Source: a virus
Strand: one strand, 5' to 3'
Length of the DNA: 22,138 bases
Virus record (IMG/VR): IMGVR_UViG_3300042106_000015
Span: 1 to 22,138 of that record
Shown here: positions 4,085 through 22,138 of the stretch, piece by piece
Layout: each line of letters begins with the position of its first letter
How positions within the stretch are numbered: the first letter of the stretch is position 1
The notes under the pieces: generated by a model
Seen by the model: the letters and a program-made list of their open reading frames with translations, nothing else
What the model was told of the DNA's origin: nothing
Databases searched by the model: none
Position numbers and translations under genes: made by a program

Positions 4085-6520
4085 TTACTCGCCTTCAAGT
4101 TCGCCAAACCATACGGCTGAATATGATTGAACATTCCTGGCAGCACCGGCGCCGTTATAGAAGGCTAATCTACATGAGGTATTTGTGCTTTCATCACTGC
4201 CGTCATAGTAATAACAAGTATCTGTCGTCCCGGCATCTGGTTGCATAGTAACCTGACACACATAAGGGATTTTATCCGCACCAGAAACCGATTCCTTAAA
4301 AGGTGTGGCAAATACTACATCAATGTGCCCAGTAGATACCCATGTTACACTCTCTATCCCATATGAACCGTTGATTGTGCTAGTTGAAATTGGTCCACCA
4401 ATAAGCCAAGCCTTCGCCTTACTTAAATCAATACCTTCATGTTGAATACCAAGACCCCTGACAGTTTCAGCCAGTTCTCTAAAATCCTCGGCTGGCATAT
4501 TGATTGAAGCATCGGTAGCACCAATTGCGTAATGACCCTCACCCCAAAGTTTTAGGTGTTCGAATGCGGTTGAAGCGCCATCTTCTACTGAATTTGTATA
4601 GACAAGCCCGTCCCAAATGCCTTTGTCGTCAGCCTGAACTACTGCGACCTTACCGGAAACCGGATCAACATCAACGTCAAGGACCGCATCGGTAGTACCG
4701 GACTGTAATAAAACCAAGGCCGCTGTATCAAACATGGGTTTCTCTGCCAAATACATATTGCGTATCAAGGCGGCAGATGGCGATACGCTTGAAACCCCGG
4801 CAAAGCGGCACATTGTTAATGTGGTAGAAGTGGCGGGGTTTGTTGACCCGTTAGCCAGTGATCCGATAGCAAAAGGCATATTACCGCTGTCAGACATAGA
4901 GCCTGTATTAGTAGTGTCAGAGGCTTCTAAAACGCCGTCAACGTACAAATAGCGTTCTGTGGATGACACGTTTACAAGGTCAGCTTTGTGCCAAGCACCA
5001 TCATCAAATGTCTCTGTTGTGGCAAGTCCACTTGCAGACGCTGATGCGCCGTTGACTTGACAATCAATAACACCACTGGTCAAGAAACTGATATAACTCT
5101 CCACAGACCGAGCAGCATTACCAAAGCCGCAGAATACTTCGCCAGTAGAGTTGCCGGAAGACTTGAACCAGATAGCCATATGAAACGGGCCAGTGCCACA
5201 AACATCCCAATCTTCATCACTTGCGCGAGTATGGTTAATTGTTGAGCTATAACCATTATAGGCTTTAAGTTCTCCAGTAGCTCCGTCAGCGGATACCTCA
5301 GTAACACCTGCACCGTTATTAGTCAGCGTATTCGCGTAGGGACTAAGATCAGCCGTTGCTGAATTGCAAAGCCAAACTCCTCTGGTTGTGTGAAGCATGT
5401 AGCCAGAATTGGTTGCCCTAGTGATTGACGCAGAGGCTAATAGCTGGTTCTGCAATGAGCCTTGACCCATGCGACCAATAGTAAAATCAAGGCCACCAGT
5501 ACCGCCTAGCGCACCAATCTTCTCTCCGATGGAAAAAGCATCAGCAGAGATACCTACACTATCAAGCCCACCGTTAGATGACAGATAACTATATGGTGGG
5601 TTGACACTTTGGTCCGCAGTAATTGTATCAATCGGTCCCGCTGCTCTGAACTGTGATGTAGAATATGCAGCGAACAGCATATCTTGGCCGATGGCGATAG
5701 CAGGAGAAGATGTTGCTGTTATCTGGATTACATCTTTAACTGTTCCATCGTTCTTAATAACAGAGGCTTGGAATGTCCCTGTCCCATACTTGACACCAAA
5801 GGTTGGGATTTGCCCTCCTGTATTACTATCAGTTGGACCACTGGAAAGCGTATTTGCTGCAACTCCAATCACATCGTTGTTGTTCAAATTAGGGGTGTCA
5901 GTTGAGTTTAATGATCGGGGCCAACCTGTTGTGGCTTCGGCCCAAGAACCAAAATGTGGGTGGATGATATGAATGCCATCCTCGGAACCCACAATGATAT
6001 AGCCCATGCTGGCTGCAATGGAAGTCGGTGTTGCAGCACCAGTAATGGTTATTGCCGCCATAGCAGTACCACCGACAATCGTGCTATCTGTGTAATCCCA
6101 GATCTCAACGGTCGTATCTGCGCCTGCGTCCTTGATGGTCGCTACCATGATTTTCTTCACAGTAGACAGATTGAGTTTTTCATCCCATTGAACACCATCC
6201 CTCGCAGGACCAAAAATAACAGCGTCAACGTATGTACCATCAGTTTCAACAACACCAGAGAAAGCGGCTGAAGTCATGGCACCATTAGCAGATACAGCGC
6301 CTGTAAATGTTCCGGTTGTTCCTGCAACAGCGCCTGTAAATGTTCCGGTTGTTCCTGCAACAGCGCCTGTAAATGTTCCGGTTGTTCCTGATACGGCACC
6401 GGATGAAGTCACAGAGGTAGCGGTCACGGCTCCTAGATTAATAGGAACCGCTGTGTTCGCTGATAAGTCCTGAAGTTTGGTGCTTTCAAGAACGTCGGTA
6501 TCAATTGTGTTAATTGCCAT
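4085..6520 (-). CDS. Large tail adhesin with stalk repeats, propeller-like region and LamG domain (module A)
   Basis: An 811-residue fibre or tailspike-like adhesin. Residues 43-75 are three 11-residue stalk repeats (GTTGTFTGAVA). About 95-390 looks like a beta-propeller, with KKIMVATIKDAGADTTVEIW, then MGYIIVGSEDGIHIIHPH. About 445-595 is a laminin-G/concanavalin-like lectin domain (FHMAIWFKSS, DGAWHKADLVNV, RYLYVDGVLEA, FAIGSLANGS). About 690-811 (AKAWLIGGPISTSTINGSYG onward) resembles the C-terminal domain of many phage fibres. A lectin fold suggests glycan binding; no catalytic motif was recognised. The gene at 1-1142 is a paralogue with strongly similar residues from VDAVIFGPARDGVQW onward. 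It follows a chaperone gene by seven bases. Confidence 0.82.
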   Translation of the reverse strand: MAINTIDTDVLESTKLQDLSANTAVPINLGAVTATSVTSSGAVSGTTGTFTGAVAGTTGTFTGAVAGTTGTFTGAVSANGAMTSAAFSGVVETDGTYVDAVIFGPARDGVQWDEKLNLSTVKKIMVATIKDAGADTTVEIWDYTDSTIVGGTAMAAITITGAATPTSIAASMGYIIVGSEDGIHIIHPHFGSWAEATTGWPRSLNSTDTPNLNNNDVIGVAANTLSSGPTDSNTGGQIPTFGVKYGTGTFQASVIKNDGTVKDVIQITATSSPAIAIGQDMLFAAYSTSQFRAAGPIDTITADQSVNPPYSYLSSNGGLDSVGISADAFSIGEKIGALGGTGGLDFTIGRMGQGSLQNQLLASASITRATNSGYMLHTTRGVWLCNSATADLSPYANTLTNNGAGVTEVSADGATGELKAYNGYSSTINHTRASDEDWDVCGTGPFHMAIWFKSSGNSTGEVFCGFGNAARSVESYISFLTSGVIDCQVNGASASASGLATTETFDDGAWHKADLVNVSSTERYLYVDGVLEASDTTNTGSMSDSGNMPFAIGSLANGSTNPATSTTLTMCRFAGVSSVSPSAALIRNMYLAEKPMFDTAALVLLQSGTTDAVLDVDVDPVSGKVAVVQADDKGIWDGLVYTNSVEDGASTAFEHLKLWGEGHYAIGATDASINMPAEDFRELAETVRGLGIQHEGIDLSKAKAWLIGGPISTSTINGSYGIESVTWVSTGHIDVVFATPFKESVSGADKIPYVCQVTMQPDAGTTDTCYYYDGSDESTNTSCRLAFYNGAGAARNVQSYSAVWFGELEGE
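6294..6392. repeat. Three 33-bp tandem repeats in the adhesin stalk
   Basis: Three head-to-tail 33-base units start at 6294, 6327 and 6360. The first two are identical and the third differs only in its last bases. They encode the collagen-like 11-mer GTTGTFTGAVA in frame. Near-identity at the DNA level points to recent expansion by slippage or recombination. Confidence 0.92.
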
Positions 6521-7959: not shown

Positions 7960-8856
7960 TTAAACCTCCGTCAACAGCCAGCCCTGCGTAGTGTTGAAAT
8001 ACACTAGCGAGAAAGCGGCTCGTTCTGTGGAAACTGTCATATCGGTATTTGATCCTTGAATAGAAATGCTGTTAGCGTCACGCGCCACAGTAATGTTATT
8101 TGTGTCTGCGGTTCCTTGCGTGTCGATAATACGAACCCAATCACCTTGTGTTGGTGTTACAGGCAAGGTCATTGTCACGGCACCACCAGTTGTCGAAACG
8201 AAGTATCTACCACCGGCGACCATCGTTGTGTTTGACGTTGCTGTGTTCCATGTTGTATCGGTCTTGGCGAAGGTAACGGCGTCGTTTGCAATCTTGATTG
8301 TCGAAACTGCGTTGTTTGCAATCTTGACTGTTGAAACTGCGCTGTCTGCGATCTTGACTGTTGAAACTGCGCTTGCAGATAGTTTAGCCGTGGTCACCGA
8401 TTGGTCTGCGACAACAGCCACATTAGAAGTAAATCCGGTACTACGAATAACAACAGGTACACCGTTCGCTGGTGAAGCGTTCAAGGTGATTGTGTTACCA
8501 GAAGCGGTATAGTTCAATTCTGAATCTTGAACAACACCACCAACCATAACAAATACGCCGTCTGAGTTTGCGGGTGAAGTTGTTACCGTAAAGGAGTTAG
8601 CGGTACCGTTTGCTGTCCATCTATGAGACTTCCATAGTTTGGCATTCACGGCTATTTTCTCAAACGTCACAGAACCAGTCTGAAGTTTTGATGTTCCTAT
8701 GGTATCGTCTGCGGCTGTGACGGTCACATCAGCCGATGATAGACTAATGGTGTAAATCTGTGAGAGGTTGCTAGGCGCGGAAGTGAAGGTTACTGTATTG
8801 CCGTTGACTGAATAATTTGTCACCGGTGTTTGAATCGCGCCGCCTACCCATACCAT
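7960..8856 (-). CDS. C-terminal part of a frameshifted tail fibre
   Basis: A 298-residue segment from the first available ATG, which lies inside a repeat domain (LMVWVGGAIQ) and so is unlikely to be the true start. Residues about 1-35 and 75-130 are copies of one beta domain (VWVGGAIQTPVTNYSVNGNT and VMVGGVVQDSELNYTASGNT). Then come three 10-residue units, STVKIA-type, typical of fibre shafts. The C-terminal 90 residues (GRYFVSTTGGAVTMTLPVTP, then GDWVRIID and FNTTQGWLLTEV) match a common C-terminal domain of phage fibres. It is almost surely the distal part of the fibre begun at 9376, separated by a frameshift. The next fibre gene starts three bases after the stop, with GGAGG overlapping its end. 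Confidence 0.8.
   Translation of the reverse strand: MVWVGGAIQTPVTNYSVNGNTVTFTSAPSNLSQIYTISLSSADVTVTAADDTIGTSKLQTGSVTFEKIAVNAKLWKSHRWTANGTANSFTVTTSPANSDGVFVMVGGVVQDSELNYTASGNTITLNASPANGVPVVIRSTGFTSNVAVVADQSVTTAKLSASAVSTVKIADSAVSTVKIANNAVSTIKIANDAVTFAKTDTTWNTATSNTTMVAGGRYFVSTTGGAVTMTLPVTPTQGDWVRIIDTQGTADTNNITVARDANSISIQGSNTDMTVSTERAAFSLVYFNTTQGWLLTEV
8291..8380. repeat. Three 30-bp tandem repeats in the fibre shaft
   Basis: Three consecutive 30-base units on the + strand, each a variant of ATCTTGACTGTTGAAACTGC plus ten bases. On the minus strand they encode (A/D/N)(S/N)AV-ST(V/I)KIA decapeptides. They lie in frame, so copy number can change shaft length without a frameshift. Confidence 0.8.
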
Positions 8857-9141
8857 AAGGGATGAAGTGTTAGGAGGGCTTGTTGTTACAGTAAATTCGG
8901 TACAAGCACCAGTGCCTGTAAATTCGTCGTGATCGAGAGAAGCGCCACCGGCTGAACTTTCAGCCCATGATAAGGTACCAGCGCCATCTGTTGTCAGAGC
9001 ATATCCGGCTGTTCCGCCGTCGATGTGCAGGCTGGCAACGCTACCGAAGTTTATATTAGCCGATTCAAAGACCGTGTTTGCGCCAGTCCATGTTGTGTTG
9101 GCTGCGATTGAATGAGAATGGTCAAATTGGTTGTTGGATTA
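8857..9141 (-). other. Fibre-coding stretch without its own start; frameshift junction
   Basis: The frame of the downstream 298-residue fibre is open back to a TAA at 9139-9141. It translates as SNNQFDHSHSIAANTTWTGA, then NTVFESANINFGSVASLHID and, further on, TEFTVTTSPPNTSSLMVWVG. This is clearly fibre sequence: the last block repeats as NSFTVTTSPANS inside the downstream protein. No ATG, GTG or TTG occurs in this frame before 8856. The upstream frame ends at TGA 9122-9124, so the two overlap only over 9125-9138. Skipping one base joins them into a protein of about 470 residues. The upstream stop context is ATT-TGA-C, one base from the prfB site CTT-TGA-C, but no Shine-Dalgarno-like stimulator precedes it. 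Confidence 0.7.
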
Positions 9142-9376
9142 TCACATTTGATGTGGCAACAAAATCAGTGTTTCCATCAAAGCTGGCGGAAACAGCAATG
9201 GTCAGATTGTTGGAACTCGAAGTGTTTGTGGTAAACGTGTTTACGTGTGCGCCAGCAACATGAAGGTAGTTGTCTTGACCTTGGGTAATGTCATTGATCT
9301 TCGTCGCAGTGAGGTTATAATTCGAAACCCACTCTGCGAAAGTATTTTGCACATATACGTTAGATAGAAGCGCCAT
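9122..9376 (-). CDS. N-terminal part of a frameshifted tail fibre
   Basis: An 84-residue reading frame (MALLSNVYVQNTFAEWVSNY, then NLTATKINDITQG) with the look of the N-terminal attachment segment of long fibre proteins in marine T4-like phages. The family normally continues into repeats, but here the frame ends in NVIIQQPI and TGA at 9122-9124. The adjacent frame has no ATG, GTG or TTG before 8856 and carries on with fibre sequence. I therefore read this as the 5' part of one gene whose 3' part is at 7960-9138, joined by a +1 shift between 9125 and 9139. It overlaps the upstream 70-residue gene by one base. If it is expressed alone, the product is only a short fragment. Confidence 0.75.
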   Translation of the reverse strand: MALLSNVYVQNTFAEWVSNYNLTATKINDITQGQDNYLHVAGAHVNTFTTNTSSSNNLTIAVSASFDGNTDFVATSNVIIQQPI

Positions 9377-15825: not shown

Positions 15826-15833
15826 TATTTATA
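15826..15833 (-). promoter_or_regulatory. T4-type late promoter box upstream of the giant virion gene
   Basis: Perfect TATAAATA on the minus strand, 30 bases before the ATG of the 2067-residue protein. It overlaps the TAA stop of the homing endonuclease (15829-15831). It gives the giant gene its own late start, so the endonuclease insertion need not have cut it off from transcription. Confidence 0.75.
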
Positions 15834-16572
15834 ATACTTGGACAAAATAGCCTTTGTATTGTTTTAGTTTACCACTGGCAACCGAGGACATATTACCAGC
15901 ATGTAGATTATTTTCTTTACAATATTTCGACATATTCTCTATTATTTCTTCTGTACCATCGGGGTGTGTGAGTAACCATTTTTTAGTGTTCCTCACGATA
16001 CCCATTTTACTTTCGCTTAATTTCTTCTTCGATATTGCTGACATAGGAACACCTTTGTTTGGCGCAGTTCTTCCTGTAGCCTTTTCACTCATTTTCTTCT
16101 TTGTTTCATCACTATGTTTTTTACCGTATAGTGGATGATTAATACCAGCGGTTTTACCCCTACGGTTTCGCCTCATCTTCTCTATGGCTTCGGCACTATG
16201 TTTCCTACCGAACATTGGATTTAAATCACCAGAACGGTCTTTACCCCTCCAATGATTATTATCACTCATTTTCTTCTTTGTTTCATCACTATGTATGAAT
16301 AGTCCAGAACCACCTTTATTCATGTTATAGCCATTATCAAAACTGTCGTATTTTTCAACATAAAACTTTTCCAGCGCGGTCGCTTCTTCAATAGTTTCTA
16401 CCGAATCAATTTCTTCTATGGAGAAATTATGGGTCCCTAAAGAAATCATTGCCTCATGTAAATCATAACCACTTTTCTTATGTTCATCAAAGCGCCCCTC
16501 AATTGTATTCTTAGTAAGCCCGATATAGTTCTTGTCGTTTTTAATGTTCGTTATTCTGTAAATATGATACAT
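15829..16572 (-). CDS. Free-standing GIY-YIG homing endonuclease with NUMOD3 repeats
   Basis: A 247-residue site-specific endonuclease of the T4 Seg/I-TevI type, expected to cut an endonuclease-free allele so that repair copies the gene in. The GIY-YIG domain covers residues 1-88, with HIY at 3-5 in place of GIY, YIG at 16-18, Arg27, His31, Glu68 (LEKFYVEKY) and Asn83 (GYNMNKGG). These match the catalytic Tyr, Tyr, Arg, His, Glu and Asn of I-TevI. From about 90 to 190 come four NUMOD3-like DNA-binding segments (HSDETKKKM, HSAEAIEKMRR, HSDETKKKM, SAISKKKL). The C-terminus (KWLLTHPDG...NMSKYCKENNL) resembles the helix-turn-helix tail of such enzymes. It looks more A+T-rich than its neighbours, which fits transfer. 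All catalytic residues are present, so it looks intact. Confidence 0.93.
   Translation of the reverse strand: MYHIYRITNIKNDKNYIGLTKNTIEGRFDEHKKSGYDLHEAMISLGTHNFSIEEIDSVETIEEATALEKFYVEKYDSFDNGYNMNKGGSGLFIHSDETKKKMSDNNHWRGKDRSGDLNPMFGRKHSAEAIEKMRRNRRGKTAGINHPLYGKKHSDETKKKMSEKATGRTAPNKGVPMSAISKKKLSESKMGIVRNTKKWLLTHPDGTEEIIENMSKYCKENNLHAGNMSSVASGKLKQYKGYFVQVL
16085..16294. repeat. Two identical 33-bp direct repeats inside the homing endonuclease gene
   Basis: The same 33 bases occur at 16085-16117 and 16262-16294, 177 bases (59 codons) apart and in frame. They encode the HSDETKKKMS core of two NUMOD3 units. Identity at the DNA level suggests recent internal duplication or gene conversion of the DNA-binding repeat. 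Confidence 0.85.
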
Positions 16573-16595: not shown

Positions 16596-16603
16596 TATTT
16601 ATA
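16596..16603 (-). promoter_or_regulatory. T4-type late promoter box upstream of the homing endonuclease
   Basis: Perfect TATAAATA followed by C on the minus strand, 23 bases before the endonuclease ATG, which also has AAGGA ahead of it. The surrounding + strand TCATGTATTTATAA nearly repeats the sequence on the other side of the endonuclease gene. Confidence 0.75.
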
Positions 16604-16633: not shown

Positions 16634-18148
16634 TCAAAAACGGATTACGAGCTTCACATCCTCGATCTGGTCAGCCGCACGACTAACAGGTGACCGATGT
16701 TCAACGTACATAATATCGCCTGAGAAATCTAACAGAGGTCCGTTGTTCGCAACAGAAACCGTTGCTGTCGCACCAGAGTCTGTACCGGTAAGGGTCTCTG
16801 CTACTGTAAATAGCCCATCAGTTTGTGTCGCATTGACCAGTGTCGTATTCGCTTGAACCACATAGCCTGTGGTGGTCGATGTTCCACCTGTTACGATTTC
16901 ATCATTTGTGAATGTACCGGAGATACCAGTAATAGTCAAAGCAGTTGATTGGTCGTATGATGAGGCTGTTGCAGAAGAACCGTTAGCCAGTAGTGGGTCG
17001 CGCAACAAACCAATAACTCGGAAGTCATTACCTGTTGTGAATGTACCTGATTCACCCTTATCGAATTTGGTGTTCAAGAGAACATTGTAACCCATCAATT
17101 CTTGAGCGGCATCAGCACCGTGACCGCTTGGTGGTCCAACATATGCAGAACCAGTCACACCAGATACACCGTTGCCTGTTACAGCCACAGTTGCTGTTGT
17201 GTAACTAGAACCAACCGCAGTAACCGTCATTGAATAGACAGTATTCGAGGTCACGTTCATTGAAGCAATAGCCGTCGCTAATGTACCATCGCCAGATATA
17301 GCGACAGTAGGTGCGATAGAATAAGTTGAGGTGCCATCCAATAGAGTGGTGAAAGCAGTACCCACGACCACAGTTTTTGATGAACCTGTATAGCCTGAAA
17401 TTGTTCGTTGCTGACCAACACCTGTTCCGCCCGTCACATATAGGGTATTGGTGTTGTATAGATTATCGACCGGGCTTGCTCCGGCATCAATGACCATCTG
17501 TGTTGTGTTAGCAACAGAGACCAATGTACCAGTATTGTAATTATCGAATTGTGTTCCACCGTTTGTAACTTCAACAACCTCAATAGAACCGTTCACAGCA
17601 GCCGCTTGCACATCCCATTGGGTCGTACCGTCGTCGCTTGAAAGAGTCTTTACAGGTATATAATCCTCTGTCAAAAACTTCACAGCATCAGCAGCCGTCA
17701 GGGTATACATGAATTTCCAGATATAACCATCAGCCGTTGTTATCGCTGTTGTGCTTGTGCCAGTTGGCTTTGTGGTTGACGTTGCACCGTTGTCATTGAA
17801 CAGGCATTTATAGACATTGAAATCTTCAGTAAGAACAAAGAAATCAGCCGTATTCAAGTCAGCCGTATGCGAGTATTCGGTATATACGGTACCTGTTGTC
17901 CAATCAACACGACGGGCTACAAGAGAGAGGTCAGTAGATTGAACTCGCTTGGCGCTCATCATATCGCGCCAGTGTTCAAACTCGGTGTTTGCTGTTGCGT
18001 CGATAGGAGTTGGTGGGTTGTTGTCGTCAGTCCATGACCGTGTGCGCCCTATAAACATATAGAGATATGAAGGCGCCGCTTCGCCAAGGGCTTCCTTGAA
18101 CTGGTCGGCGTTATAGACTCTAAATTTAGAGGTGACTAATGATGGCAT
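16634..18148 (-). CDS. 8: Baseplate wedge protein, T4 gp8-like, with inserted domain
   Basis: Baseplate wedge subunit homologous to T4 gp8. Shared motifs, in order: LVTSKFR at 4-10 (T4 IVTSKFR); FIGRTRSW then PPTP at about 32-48 (T4 FGRSEPW, PPYP); MMSAKRV...LVARRVDW at about 63-83 (T4 MMGTVKV...VIPRRDW); ADGYIWKFMY near 140 (T4 GDGYVWEYLF); EDYIPV near 160 (T4 NEYIVV); and the C-terminal SGDIMYVEHRSPV...ADQ at about 476-495 (T4 SGEMIYMENRPPI...MDQ). At 504 residues it is about 170 longer than T4 gp8. The extra length lies mostly between EDYIPV and the C-terminal motif and includes beta modules such as FTNDEIVTGGTS and FTVAETLTGTDSGATATV. The position near gp6 fits. A homing endonuclease gene follows immediately downstream. 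Confidence 0.88.
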   Translation of the reverse strand: MPSLVTSKFRVYNADQFKEALGEAAPSYLYMFIGRTRSWTDDNNPPTPIDATANTEFEHWRDMMSAKRVQSTDLSLVARRVDWTTGTVYTEYSHTADLNTADFFVLTEDFNVYKCLFNDNGATSTTKPTGTSTTAITTADGYIWKFMYTLTAADAVKFLTEDYIPVKTLSSDDGTTQWDVQAAAVNGSIEVVEVTNGGTQFDNYNTGTLVSVANTTQMVIDAGASPVDNLYNTNTLYVTGGTGVGQQRTISGYTGSSKTVVVGTAFTTLLDGTSTYSIAPTVAISGDGTLATAIASMNVTSNTVYSMTVTAVGSSYTTATVAVTGNGVSGVTGSAYVGPPSGHGADAAQELMGYNVLLNTKFDKGESGTFTTGNDFRVIGLLRDPLLANGSSATASSYDQSTALTITGISGTFTNDEIVTGGTSTTTGYVVQANTTLVNATQTDGLFTVAETLTGTDSGATATVSVANNGPLLDFSGDIMYVEHRSPVSRAADQIEDVKLVIRF

Positions 18149-18378: not shown

Positions 18379-18386
18379 TATTTATA
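18379..18386 (-). promoter_or_regulatory. T4-type late promoter box
   Basis: Perfect TATAAATA on the minus strand, followed by C as in the extended T4 consensus. It lies in the short gap after the stop of the 117-residue gene and 33 bases before the preferred ATG (18345) of the next small gene. It could drive the small gene and the gp8-like gene behind it. Confidence 0.75.
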
Positions 18387-18390
18387 AGCG

Positions 18391-18744
18391 TTATACGGCT
18401 ACAATCGTTCTATCACTTACCCGACGCCAATTGGTGCCATCAGAGAAAGCCATTGTTGCACCACCGGCATCGTCGGTGACATATATCAACCCCGCAGCAA
18501 CAGCCGCAGATGGTACTGTACCCACTGTATATGAGGTGACAAAAACAATATCACCTGTGATATTACCAGTCGTCACGATATTCTGAGTACCCGAAGCGCG
18601 GAGTAACGGCACACCACCGAGGGTCACGCCGTCATGAACAACAGCCGTGATCTTCGTTGTATCAACGGTAATTTCACCAGATGCACCTGTAAAGGTAGAA
18701 TGCTGTCCAGTAGTACCGCGTCTGAATTTTGTCTCTGTTGCCAT
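18391..18744 (-). CDS. Small virion protein with Mtd-N-like fibre-head motif
   Basis: A 117-residue protein, probably a small structural or fibre-associated component. Residues 6-42 (KFRRGTTGQHSTFTGASGEI, then TVDTTK and VVHDG) match the N-terminal motif found on many phage fibres and receptor-binding proteins, resembling the N-terminal domain of major tropism determinant. Residues about 86-112 have GLIYVTDDAGGATMAFSDGT then NWRRVSD, also common in phage structural proteins. No C-terminal receptor-binding domain is present, so it is a stand-alone version of a domain normally fused to a larger fibre. Start choice is supported by GGAG ten bases upstream and by the late promoter box. It lies between baseplate genes, which argues for a tail or baseplate location. 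Exact role unknown. Confidence 0.7.
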   Translation of the reverse strand: MATETKFRRGTTGQHSTFTGASGEITVDTTKITAVVHDGVTLGGVPLLRASGTQNIVTTGNITGDIVFVTSYTVGTVPSAAVAAGLIYVTDDAGGATMAFSDGTNWRRVSDRTIVAV

Positions 18745-18772: not shown

Positions 18773-18780
18773 TATTTATA
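18773..18780 (-). promoter_or_regulatory. T4-type late promoter box
   Basis: Minus strand reads TATAAATA, the full T4 late consensus, 28 bases before the ATG of the 117-residue gene. A Shine-Dalgarno GGAG lies between box and start. It falls in the decayed stretch between two genes. T4 late boxes are recognised by the phage sigma factor gp55 with gp33 and the clamp gp45; whether this phage encodes them cannot be seen here. Confidence 0.75.
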
Positions 18781-18784
18781 AGTC

Positions 18785-18902
18785 TTAGACTGTACCGTAA
18801 TATGAATTCGATGTTACAACCGAAACGATAAGGCCATAATCGCTGTTCGCTGTGATTGACTGAGTAATCAAGTTTCAATCAATCTGGGTATCACCAGGTA
18901 AG
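18785..18902 (-). pseudogene. Decayed 3' end of the 482-residue structural gene
   Basis: This stretch between two genes still reads as coding in the frame that would follow if one copy of the adjoining 10-bp duplication were removed. That frame gives DYRDLPGDTQID, then a TGA, then NLITQSITANSDYG, then LIVSVVTSNSYYGTV and a TAA. The Asp-aromatic-Gly pattern recurs at 13-residue steps, the same period as the DWG repeats in the intact part. If the TGA is read as a mutated TGG, it falls in the Trp position of the repeat. I infer a lost C-terminal repeat tail of about 45 residues. An alternative is an assembly error for the duplication, but the TGA needs a second change. Confidence 0.6.
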
Positions 18903-18920
18903 TCACGATAAGTCACGATA
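18901..18920. repeat. Perfect 10-bp tandem duplication at the gene end
   Basis: AGTCACGATA occurs twice in a row on the + strand. Ten bases is not a multiple of three, so it shifts the frame of the 482-residue gene and brings in a TGA right after RDLS. Deleting one unit restores an open frame for seven more residues before the next stop. Confidence 0.9.
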
Positions 18921-20351
18921 ATCATTGTAGACCATAGGTGCTTGTGTCAGTGAACCCCAATCAAGTGACAGGGTAGACACAACAGCAACAGAACCCCAAT
19001 CCAATGCGCTTTCATTGGTCAATATAGCAGAGCGTTTGTGAACTGTACCAGCCGCAAGAATACCCGAATAGACGTTGTTTACATCAATGAAGGTATCGCC
19101 ACCGATAGCATCAACAAGGAAGCCTTGGTCTGGATTTGTTTCTGTTGGGTCAACAACAATAATGAAGTCACCGATTTCAAGTTCTGTTGTGAACAGAGTA
19201 CCTGTACCGATGAACGACGAACCGTTACCGATCTCACTAATAGGAATACTGGCGTACAATGAGATAAGGTCAGATTCATAGAATTCAATGGTCGAGTTAC
19301 CAGATGGTGTCACGGTTCCTGTAAGCGTTGACGAGCTGGTTGTCTCTGTTACGCCATATTGAGGTACATCATAAGGAGTTGACCACGTATCGGCTTCAAC
19401 CGTGATTGTAATTTCACTGTTAGCAAATAGGTTGTTCGCAATCAAGTCTGAGATCGCAACCATTTCTGGCTCAAGGTTATTGGTTAGTTCCAGAGTCGTT
19501 GTAGACGAGAGGTCAAGGTCGTCAATAAAGGCAATCTGCCCAAACATCGCTGTACCTGAAGGGTGGACAATGCGCTGCAATATGTCTCGGTAGCGTTCGA
19601 CATACTGTGTCGTTTTCAGAACATATGAATATTCCTGGTAATAGTAGTTATCCTGTAGGTACTTGTTAGATGATAGAAAGCCATCAGTACCCACGAACAA
19701 ACCATCAGAAGAACTAACAACATCAACAACAAAGGTCAGTCCAGAGGTAGATGTAACGACTTCTTCGGCCACGAACGTACCAAGTTTTGGCGAGACATAG
19801 AACGTATAGGTGGGTGCACCTGCGCTGTACGTCTTCAATACTTGTTCAACAACACCAGAAGCACCTGAGCTACCACCTGTTATCTGAAAACCCTCAGCCG
19901 CGAACAATTCATCAGAGCCATTGTAACCAAGTGCGGTCAGTGTGGTCTTGATGGTCCATTTACCATCTGAAGCGCGGAGTATGTCAGTACCAGGGTAATA
20001 GAATTCTACGCTGTCATCATAGAGAATGCGGAACATAAGTTCAAAAGATTTTTCAGAACCCCTCGCACGATAGAAAGATGAAACATTCTTCAGTAGGTTA
20101 GGTGTGTTGGCTAAGTGCGACCGAGGTATGTTGGGTAGAAAGTCAGCCTCAAAGTATTCAAGATATGCATCAAGTGTATTGTCAACGTCGTGGTATGACA
20201 ACAGGTTCTGGTTAGCGTCAATAGCATTACCCGTTTGCTCCATCCATTCATAATAGGCTTCCATAAAAGCCACGAACATAGGACCATCAGTGCGAATGAA
20301 TTCGGGAAATTGCTGTTCAACCAGCGTTGATATCTTGTTTACAGTCGTCAT
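18903..20351 (-). CDS. Putative baseplate/tail structural protein (gp7-position), C-terminus apparently shortened
   Basis: A 482-residue virion protein lying between gp6-like and gp8-like genes, where T4 has gp7, so a baseplate wedge role is inferred from position. Its N-terminus (about 13-43: FPEFIRTDGPMFVAFMEAYY then EWMEQ) is a block I associate with baseplate-region proteins of T4-like cyanophages and marine myoviruses. Residues about 136-215 contain a beta module with SSGASG and a following FVAEEVVTSTSG. A second module near 375-430 has GTGTLFTTELEIGD. The C-terminus holds D-W-G repeats spaced 13 residues apart (ALDWGS, then LDWGS). The gene ends abruptly in DYRDLS because of a 10-bp tandem duplication; see the adjoining remnant. 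It is far shorter than T4 gp7 (about 1030), so orthology with gp7 is uncertain. Confidence 0.72.
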   Translation of the reverse strand: MTTVNKISTLVEQQFPEFIRTDGPMFVAFMEAYYEWMEQTGNAIDANQNLLSYHDVDNTLDAYLEYFEADFLPNIPRSHLANTPNLLKNVSSFYRARGSEKSFELMFRILYDDSVEFYYPGTDILRASDGKWTIKTTLTALGYNGSDELFAAEGFQITGGSSGASGVVEQVLKTYSAGAPTYTFYVSPKLGTFVAEEVVTSTSGLTFVVDVVSSSDGLFVGTDGFLSSNKYLQDNYYYQEYSYVLKTTQYVERYRDILQRIVHPSGTAMFGQIAFIDDLDLSSTTTLELTNNLEPEMVAISDLIANNLFANSEITITVEADTWSTPYDVPQYGVTETTSSSTLTGTVTPSGNSTIEFYESDLISLYASIPISEIGNGSSFIGTGTLFTTELEIGDFIIVVDPTETNPDQGFLVDAIGGDTFIDVNNVYSGILAAGTVHKRSAILTNESALDWGSVAVVSTLSLDWGSLTQAPMVYNDYRDLS

Positions 20352-20353
20352 GG

Positions 20354-22138
20354 TTACACGGTACGATCTTCAACAGAGGTTATGGTTGTGTCTTTGATAT
20401 TGATAATTTGAGCAAGTGTCGGTGTTATGTCGTTGTCAGTAGGTGTGATAGAAATTTCCAGTATGCCTGAATTACCTACAGCCGTAGGGTTGAAAGCATC
20501 AAGAGATACAGCACCCGTATCATAATTGACAGTACCTGCAGCAGCCTCAAGAATGACCTTATCACCACCATCCCAGCGGTATATCTGAATAATACCAGAA
20601 CCATCATCTTGTAGAAAAGAGGTGAAGCCAAGGTAAGTGAATGACGTAGACTGAATAACACCAGTATGAGCCGTATGAGGATCATGAGTTTCCGTATGTA
20701 GAATAGCGTTCTTAAACTGAATGGTGTATGAGGTAGCCACACTCACGGTTGGTGTTATCTCCATCATCATTTTCACACTAGACAGGTTACCACGAATAGA
20801 GTTATCCGTTGCATCAATGACGGTAGAGAAAGCAGAGAACCTGAACTTGTTACCGAAGTCATCCAAGGTATCTGTCTGATATGTCGCAATCGAAGCAGCC
20901 ACTTCACTCTCAATGGTACCTGCGTTCTTTGTTGTCAAGTCTGGGTTCCACCTTATCTCGACAGTCGGGATAACATAGAGGAATTCAGCATCAACCACGA
21001 TAGGGTCAATACTCATTACATTGCGAGTCTTCAGTGAGGCTACCAAGATTTCTTTACGGGTGTCTGAAATGATGGTACCTACCGAGGGATTTACTGCGAG
21101 ATACACACGGCCGTAAATAGGTGGGTCATTATCTTCACCACCCCATACGTTGACCGAGGTGAAATCTGCGTTCTCTGCCATGATAACACGCTCGTAATCA
21201 CCTTGAGTGACCACACGGTTCTGTCTCTCGTAGTACAGGGGTGCATTAAACTTAACAGCAGCCACAGTTTCTAACTCTCGACCACCGGCAGCCGATGTTG
21301 TTGTCGCAATCGTCACATCACTATAACCAGCAATGGCAGAGAGGTTAGTGAATGAGGAGGCTCCATTACCCTGTGTGGTGTTACAAACGTGGTAGTCAAT
21401 GATGACCTGATTACCATCTGATAGAGATACGCCGAGGATATCGTCACCGAAGTAGATGCGGAATTGCTCGTCGTCTGTCTCCTCAAGGAAATAGACTGTT
21501 GACTCACCTGTAAGTTGGGTTATGTCGTCTGCAAGGGTGTATGTTGTGATTGTAGAAGAACCTGCAGATGGCTTGACTGTTATGCCAATACGAGTCGTAT
21601 CGACATTTTTATTCGGTATGACATATTCAACAGGGCTACCTGTGTCAACGGTATATGTGTGGGTTAGTGGATAACCTTCAGCTATCGTCACTCCCGTTGC
21701 GACATAGGTGTTTGCACCACTCTTAGTTATCAACGTACCTGATGAGGTCGTGAAGGTCAGTGTTATGTCATCGACCACAGTGGTCATTTGTGTATTGACA
21801 GGAATGGAGATACTGTCAGGTGAATCAGTAGGTACGATGGTGATGGTTACTTCTGCAATAGCACCGGCGGCTGACGATGGTGTGTACCCTAATTCTTGCG
21901 CTCTTTCAATCACGTTGTTACGAAGTTGGGCCGACTTCAGGAACGACTCGTTGGCGACCATATTTGTATAATAAGCGTTGTAATGTGTATTGTAAGCCAG
22001 TATGTCCAGTAAGGTACTGATATTAGAACCATCAAAATCATAGTCAGCAAAATTCGATTGTGCCGCCATAAAGGTCTTCAATGACGCACGAATATTACCA
22101 AAATCCAGTTCGGTGACTTGTAGGGCTGAATTAGCTGT
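20354..22138 (-). CDS. 6: Baseplate wedge protein, T4 gp6-like (5' end just outside the window)
   Basis: Probable baseplate wedge subunit; in T4 gp6 joins neighbouring wedges into the ring around the tail hub. The frame is open to the window edge, and the visible 594 residues begin TANSALQVTELDFGNIRASL, so the initiator is probably only one or a few codons outside. The first in-window start-like codon, a TTG at 22081, cuts into this conserved N-terminus and should not be used. Residues about 20-90 carry the family N-terminal block (DYDFDGSNIS, LAYNTHYNAYYTNMVANE, LGYTPSS). A baseplate-J-like core follows near 300-345 with RQNRVVTQGDYE and NVWGGEDNDPPIYGRVYLA. Length is close to T4 gp6 (about 660). 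The 482-residue gene starts two bases after the stop, so translation is probably coupled. Family recognition is from remembered motifs, not from a search. Confidence 0.88.
   Translation of the reverse strand, partial: TANSALQVTELDFGNIRASLKTFMAAQSNFADYDFDGSNISTLLDILAYNTHYNAYYTNMVANESFLKSAQLRNNVIERAQELGYTPSSAAGAIAEVTITIVPTDSPDSISIPVNTQMTTVVDDITLTFTTSSGTLITKSGANTYVATGVTIAEGYPLTHTYTVDTGSPVEYVIPNKNVDTTRIGITVKPSAGSSTITTYTLADDITQLTGESTVYFLEETDDEQFRIYFGDDILGVSLSDGNQVIIDYHVCNTTQGNGASSFTNLSAIAGYSDVTIATTTSAAGGRELETVAAVKFNAPLYYERQNRVVTQGDYERVIMAENADFTSVNVWGGEDNDPPIYGRVYLAVNPSVGTIISDTRKEILVASLKTRNVMSIDPIVVDAEFLYVIPTVEIRWNPDLTTKNAGTIESEVAASIATYQTDTLDDFGNKFRFSAFSTVIDATDNSIRGNLSSVKMMMEITPTVSVATSYTIQFKNAILHTETHDPHTAHTGVIQSTSFTYLGFTSFLQDDGSGIIQIYRWDGGDKVILEAAAGTVNYDTGAVSLDAFNPTAVGNSGILEISITPTDNDITPTLAQIINIKDTTITSVEDRTV

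Follow-up and report, generated by a model that had tools for sequence, protein, structure and literature searches.

A baseplate wedge gene in a marine, T4-like phage has most likely undergone recent C-terminal pseudogenisation, in which a two-set gp7-type gene would have been cut to one set of repeats by a 10-bp duplication and a TGA codon. We analyzed a 22,138-nt stretch of DNA, referred to here as the window, that comprises positions 1 to 22,138 of the IMG/VR virus record IMGVR_UViG_3300042106_000015. The gene ends inside the duplication, a second stop follows in the displaced frame, and the DNA beyond that stop is coding-like and matches repeats from other phages. Gene truncation by slippage is common and well known, and the present case is one more. 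It provides a clean case of C-terminal shortening of a baseplate protein in which the lost coding sequence can still be read. The positions of the relevant features are given in Table 1.

Table 1. Features of the truncated wedge gene and its surroundings (window positions)
Feature	Position	Strand	Remarks
gp6-like gene, baseplate wedge subunit	20354-22081		phrog_219; flanks the wedge gene
gp7-like baseplate wedge gene (482 aa), 3' end apparently truncated	18903-20351	minus	stop TGA 18903-18905
Retained repeat triplet, NESALDWGSVAVV / STLSLDWGSLTQA / PMVYNDYRDLS	18906-19016	minus	PWM ranks
10-bp perfect tandem duplication, TTATCGTGAC twice, then TTA	18899-18921	minus	shifts the frame
Second lesion, TGA in frame with the tail	18875-18877	minus	aromatic position of a repeat unit
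Putative remnant of lost repeat triplet, NLITQSITANSDYGLIVSVVTSNSYYGTV	18788-18874	minus	profile, PWM, codon score
TAA, probable former stop of the gene	18785-18787	minus	after YYGTV; compare the stop after EDYGTL in L091
T4-type late promoter element TATAAATA for the gene at 18391-18744	18773-18780	minus	
117-aa tail protein gene, next downstream	18391-18744	minus	phrog_9648
gp8-like gene, baseplate wedge subunit	16634-18148		phrog_438

Judged by its sequence, the 482-aa product is a T4 gp7-like baseplate wedge protein. It matches the Pfam family PF23786 (Baseplate_wedge) with 52.3 bits (cut-off 27), and it matches phrog_17744 with an E value of 2.5e-72. A profile built from 15 relatives of the protein matched residues 648-758 of T4 gp7 in the solved structures 5hx2/5iv5 (E 5.8e-7) and also matched the gp7 structure 9f4a. 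gp7 is a component of the wedge (PMC3004832). The neighborhood agrees with this similarity, with a gp6-like gene on one side and a gp8-like gene on the other, the latter separated from the wedge gene by two small genes of 67 and 117 aa. In T4, gp7 likewise sits between gp6 and gp8. The T4 protein differs in its length of 1032 aa, and the D-[WY]-G repeats at the C-terminus of the window protein have no counterpart in the gp7 match. A comparison of 80 relatives placed the conserved part of the family mainly in the first 270-310 residues, with an insert in many members, and found highly divergent C-termini. Further along the window, a gene for a GIY-YIG-type homing endonuclease (15829-16572, minus strand) lies between the gp8-like gene and a gene for a 2067-aa structural protein and has its own upstream TATAAATA element at 16596-16603.

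The preliminary description had placed the end of the wedge gene at a 10-bp tandem duplication, and the sequence bears this out. On the minus strand, the two copies of the unit (18921-18912 and 18911-18902) are followed by TTA (18901-18899), which gives a 13-bp match at a lag of 10. The product as encoded ends in ...ESALDWGSVAVVSTLSLDWGSLTQAPMVYNDYRDLS, and its TGA falls within copy 2. No second perfect tandem with a period of 8-30 exists anywhere in the window. None of 60 simulated windows that keep the trinucleotide make-up of the original contained a perfect tandem with a period of 8-13 and a match run of at least 13 bp. TTA flanks the 10-bp unit on both sides, and this pair would form a usual substrate for copying slippage.

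Translating the displaced frame gave ...YRDLPGDTQID, a TGA, 29 open codons and a TAA, as expected from the earlier proposal that a TGA and a stretch with a 13-residue period follow the gene. At 13-residue spacing, the gene reads D-W-G, D-W-G and D-Y-R (LDWGSV, LDWGSL and NDYRDL) and the remnant reads D-stop-N, D-Y-G and Y-Y-G (D-stop-NLI, SDYGLI and SYYGTV). The truncated protein stops one residue past its first repeat set. The second TGA had been described as standing in place of a Trp; it does occupy the aromatic slot of a unit, whose former residue may have been Trp. Reassignment of TGA was considered and rejected: the standard code leaves the long genes of the window open, and TGA also terminates other genes. 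The remnant also contains a 7-bp perfect tandem (ACAGCGA twice, minus strand, 18840-18853), which is probably chance or old because it leaves the 13-residue spacing undisturbed.

Three measures of the remnant were obtained. In the displaced frame, the remnant has a codon score of 0.52 bits per codon, which is above that of 80% of real gene segments. Real segments of 37 codons have a mean score of 0.36 (sd 0.17), while off-frame segments have a mean of -0.36 (sd 0.20) and none reaches 0.52. We also scored the window with a 13-position weight matrix (PWM) derived from five loci of other phages, none from the phage studied here. Among 44,200 window 13-mers, units of the tail ranked 2nd and 17th and retained units ranked 3rd and 5th. 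The chained PWM score of the remnant was matched by none of 3000 shuffles and, within the window, only at the end of the wedge gene. This matrix is not blind, since the tail itself served as the query that led to one of its loci, from the jumbo phage Phosso, and the other four were found via Phosso. That query, 42 residues of the displaced frame with X at the stop, had given a weak match to Phosso (E 0.4, SEDYGLVTEGVTGSEDYGLVTEGITSSEDY). Finally, a profile built from six foreign triplets (A1) had a single match in the window, at 18791-18871 (E 7.2e-5), and it also matched the copy of the remnant in a sibling contig (E 3.5e-5).

We found similar triplets in other phages, where they form sets of three, mostly with 13-residue spacing (L083-L087, L091-L106). 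The unit has a 13-residue period and a conserved D-aromatic-G-x-[IVL] core, and the repeat of the window conforms to it by both PWM and profile. Carriers include relatives of the tip protein J (phrog_31), giant fibre-like proteins (phrog_11522), a jumbo-phage protein and another wedge protein. Some of the giant proteins contain many sets. The other wedge protein (L084/L096) has an internal triplet and has PHROG matches in common with the protein of the window. In the hypothetical protein XYS97267.1 of Sinorhizobium phage Phosso and at loci L084-L106, the spacing, the core and the three units per set are the same as in the window; these repeats differ in lying in intact open frames and in having mostly Y rather than W. 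A 163-aa frame at L091 ends in DYGLITEAVTSTEDYGLITQLVTSTEDYGTL followed by a stop (EDYGTL-stop), so a triplet with a YGT[LV] end occurs as a C-terminus elsewhere. The window fits three plus three units, and both the grouping in threes and the ability to end a protein are found outside it. Because the codon score, the PWM, the profile and the L091 C-terminus agree, we regard 18788-18874 as a relic of coding sequence, on the strength of its sequence character. The same lines of evidence support the original suggestion of a structural gene truncated by two lesions with its repeat tail still readable.

The triplet repeat is a more interesting by-product of this analysis than the truncation. Searches of Pfam and PHROG with the repeat region of the window gave no convincing match, and a limited literature search did not find the repeat described. 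It seems to be a shared module of phage tail proteins that the libraries and literature searched do not describe. AlphaFold models had low confidence both for the wedge protein (mean pLDDT 46) and for a J-type repeat fragment (mean pLDDT 35). Tentatively, phage tails may exchange the D-[WY]-G triplet as a module, so far undescribed, that is gained and lost set by set. The loss seen here would then have stopped at a set boundary, and a marine population now in circulation would carry a wedge protein that still works with one set; we consider this broader proposal possible but rather doubtful.

We searched for relatives in which the tail is intact. The lesions themselves, a frameshift and a premature stop, are clear, and the tail DNA has a single relative, a nearly identical sibling contig. 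None of the collections searched contained a close relative whose tail is intact, and the genome collection yielded no relative. The nearest wedge proteins (L002/L003, 44% identity) have an unrelated domain at their C-termini, and the chained repeat is absent from the remaining wedge relatives compared. A tblastn search of phages with the C-terminus of the gene gave no match. A scan with a degenerate DNA pattern of the tail recovered nothing but the sibling contig and two matches that we dismissed as chance: they lack similarity to the window and run antisense within an unrelated gene. Since the search yielded no relative that carries the double triplet intact, the direction of change, loss of a tail rather than a tail never expressed, is suggested by the coding character of the remnant and not by the family tree.

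An improbable alternative is that phages exchange the repeat block freely as a module and that this copy was already broken when captured, with its second triplet never expressed. In favor of this, unrelated phages carry triplets in unrelated proteins (wedge, tip J and giant fibre-like), and members of the wedge family differ greatly at their C-termini. The second TGA could be original to an acquired cassette that was never fully expressed. However, a once-intact gene would be expected to show just this arrangement: the register runs unbroken from the retained triplet through the remnant to the old stop, and the promoter lies at its normal spacing.

We propose that the ancestral C-terminus of the wedge protein would have consisted of six 13-residue D-[WY]-G repeats, arranged as two sets of three. 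A copying slip between two TTA triplets 10 bases apart would have generated the 10-bp duplication, and the resulting frameshift would have closed the reading frame where the first set ends. The additional TGA in the second set would stem from a point mutation. The present 482-aa product would close with a single repeat set, a natural ending of some other phage proteins, and the second set would persist as recent, barely decayed non-coding DNA ahead of an ordinary late promoter. We infer this order of lesions, the slippage route and the continued function of the one-set protein.

The position of the late promoter bears on the former end of the gene. T4-like phages use TATAAATA as their late promoter element (PMC2984593). 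The window contains five such sites against 0.99 expected, and none of 100 shuffles reached five. The element upstream of the 117-aa gene starts 4 nt past the old TAA. Another, at 18379-18386, starts 4 nt past the stop of the 117-aa gene (18391), so the two spacings are equal. Between the annotated end of the wedge gene and the next gene lie 158 nt, as against 40 nt when the gap is counted from the old stop; the remaining gaps in the window are 0-61 nt, except one that is accounted for by a deletion. The preliminary description had put the late promoter near the end of the remnant and suggested that the tail DNA was reused as a leader. The element in fact lies past the stop of the remnant. A late transcript begins downstream of TATAAATA, and the tail DNA is therefore outside that leader. 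The promoter position thus supports an old gene end and lends no support to leader reuse. No terminator was found in the remnant.

The absence of decay in the tail codons might instead mean that the tail is still made, through a hop of 10 nt from TTA to TTA or a +1 shift at TGA-C, followed by readthrough of the second TGA. The tandem duplication supplies matched codons 10 nt apart, and bypassing of the gene 60 type is known in phage T4 (PMC5009743, PMC11194080). The matched codons around the stop resemble gene 60, and TGA-C followed by a +1 frame resembles prfB-type frameshifting. The resemblance ends there: no stimulatory structure was found (RNA fold z -1.04), TCG to CGT is a poor slip, and a further in-frame TGA lies downstream, so that two independent recoding events would be required. 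Any tandem duplication trivially yields matched codons, and the lesions may be too young for visible decay. We consider continued synthesis of the tail barely credible and favor its loss.

Errors are possible in metagenome contigs, and elsewhere the window lacks 131 bp and one 33-bp repeat copy that a sibling contig (L112) has. The 10-bp duplication could accordingly be an assembly or sequencing artefact in a gene that is intact except for one stop. This is very unlikely because both lesions recur unchanged in IMGVR_UViG_3300024261_000387 (L001/L090), which has 6369 bp in common with the window at 99.94% identity. This second contig, with few differences, has the identical 23-bp array. The 10-bp unit is also shorter than usual assembly word lengths, collapse of a repeat would not create a duplication, and the second TGA would persist anyway. 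The two contigs may belong to one sampling series and would then not represent two independent lineages.

Other strain differences were observed in the window. A fibre-like gene is split into two frames (9122-9376 and 7960-8856, minus strand) with a junction at about 9131-9137. In L112 (IMGVR_UViG_3300024261_000067), this gene is one open frame of ~515 aa; the 131 bp that lie there between two CCAACAA copies are missing from the window. The reading frame of the fibre-like gene extends upstream of the annotated ATG at 8856. A 33-bp tandem repeat at 6294-6390 encodes TGTFTGAVAGT units of an 811-aa protein, and its copy number varies between strains, since L112 has one extra copy.
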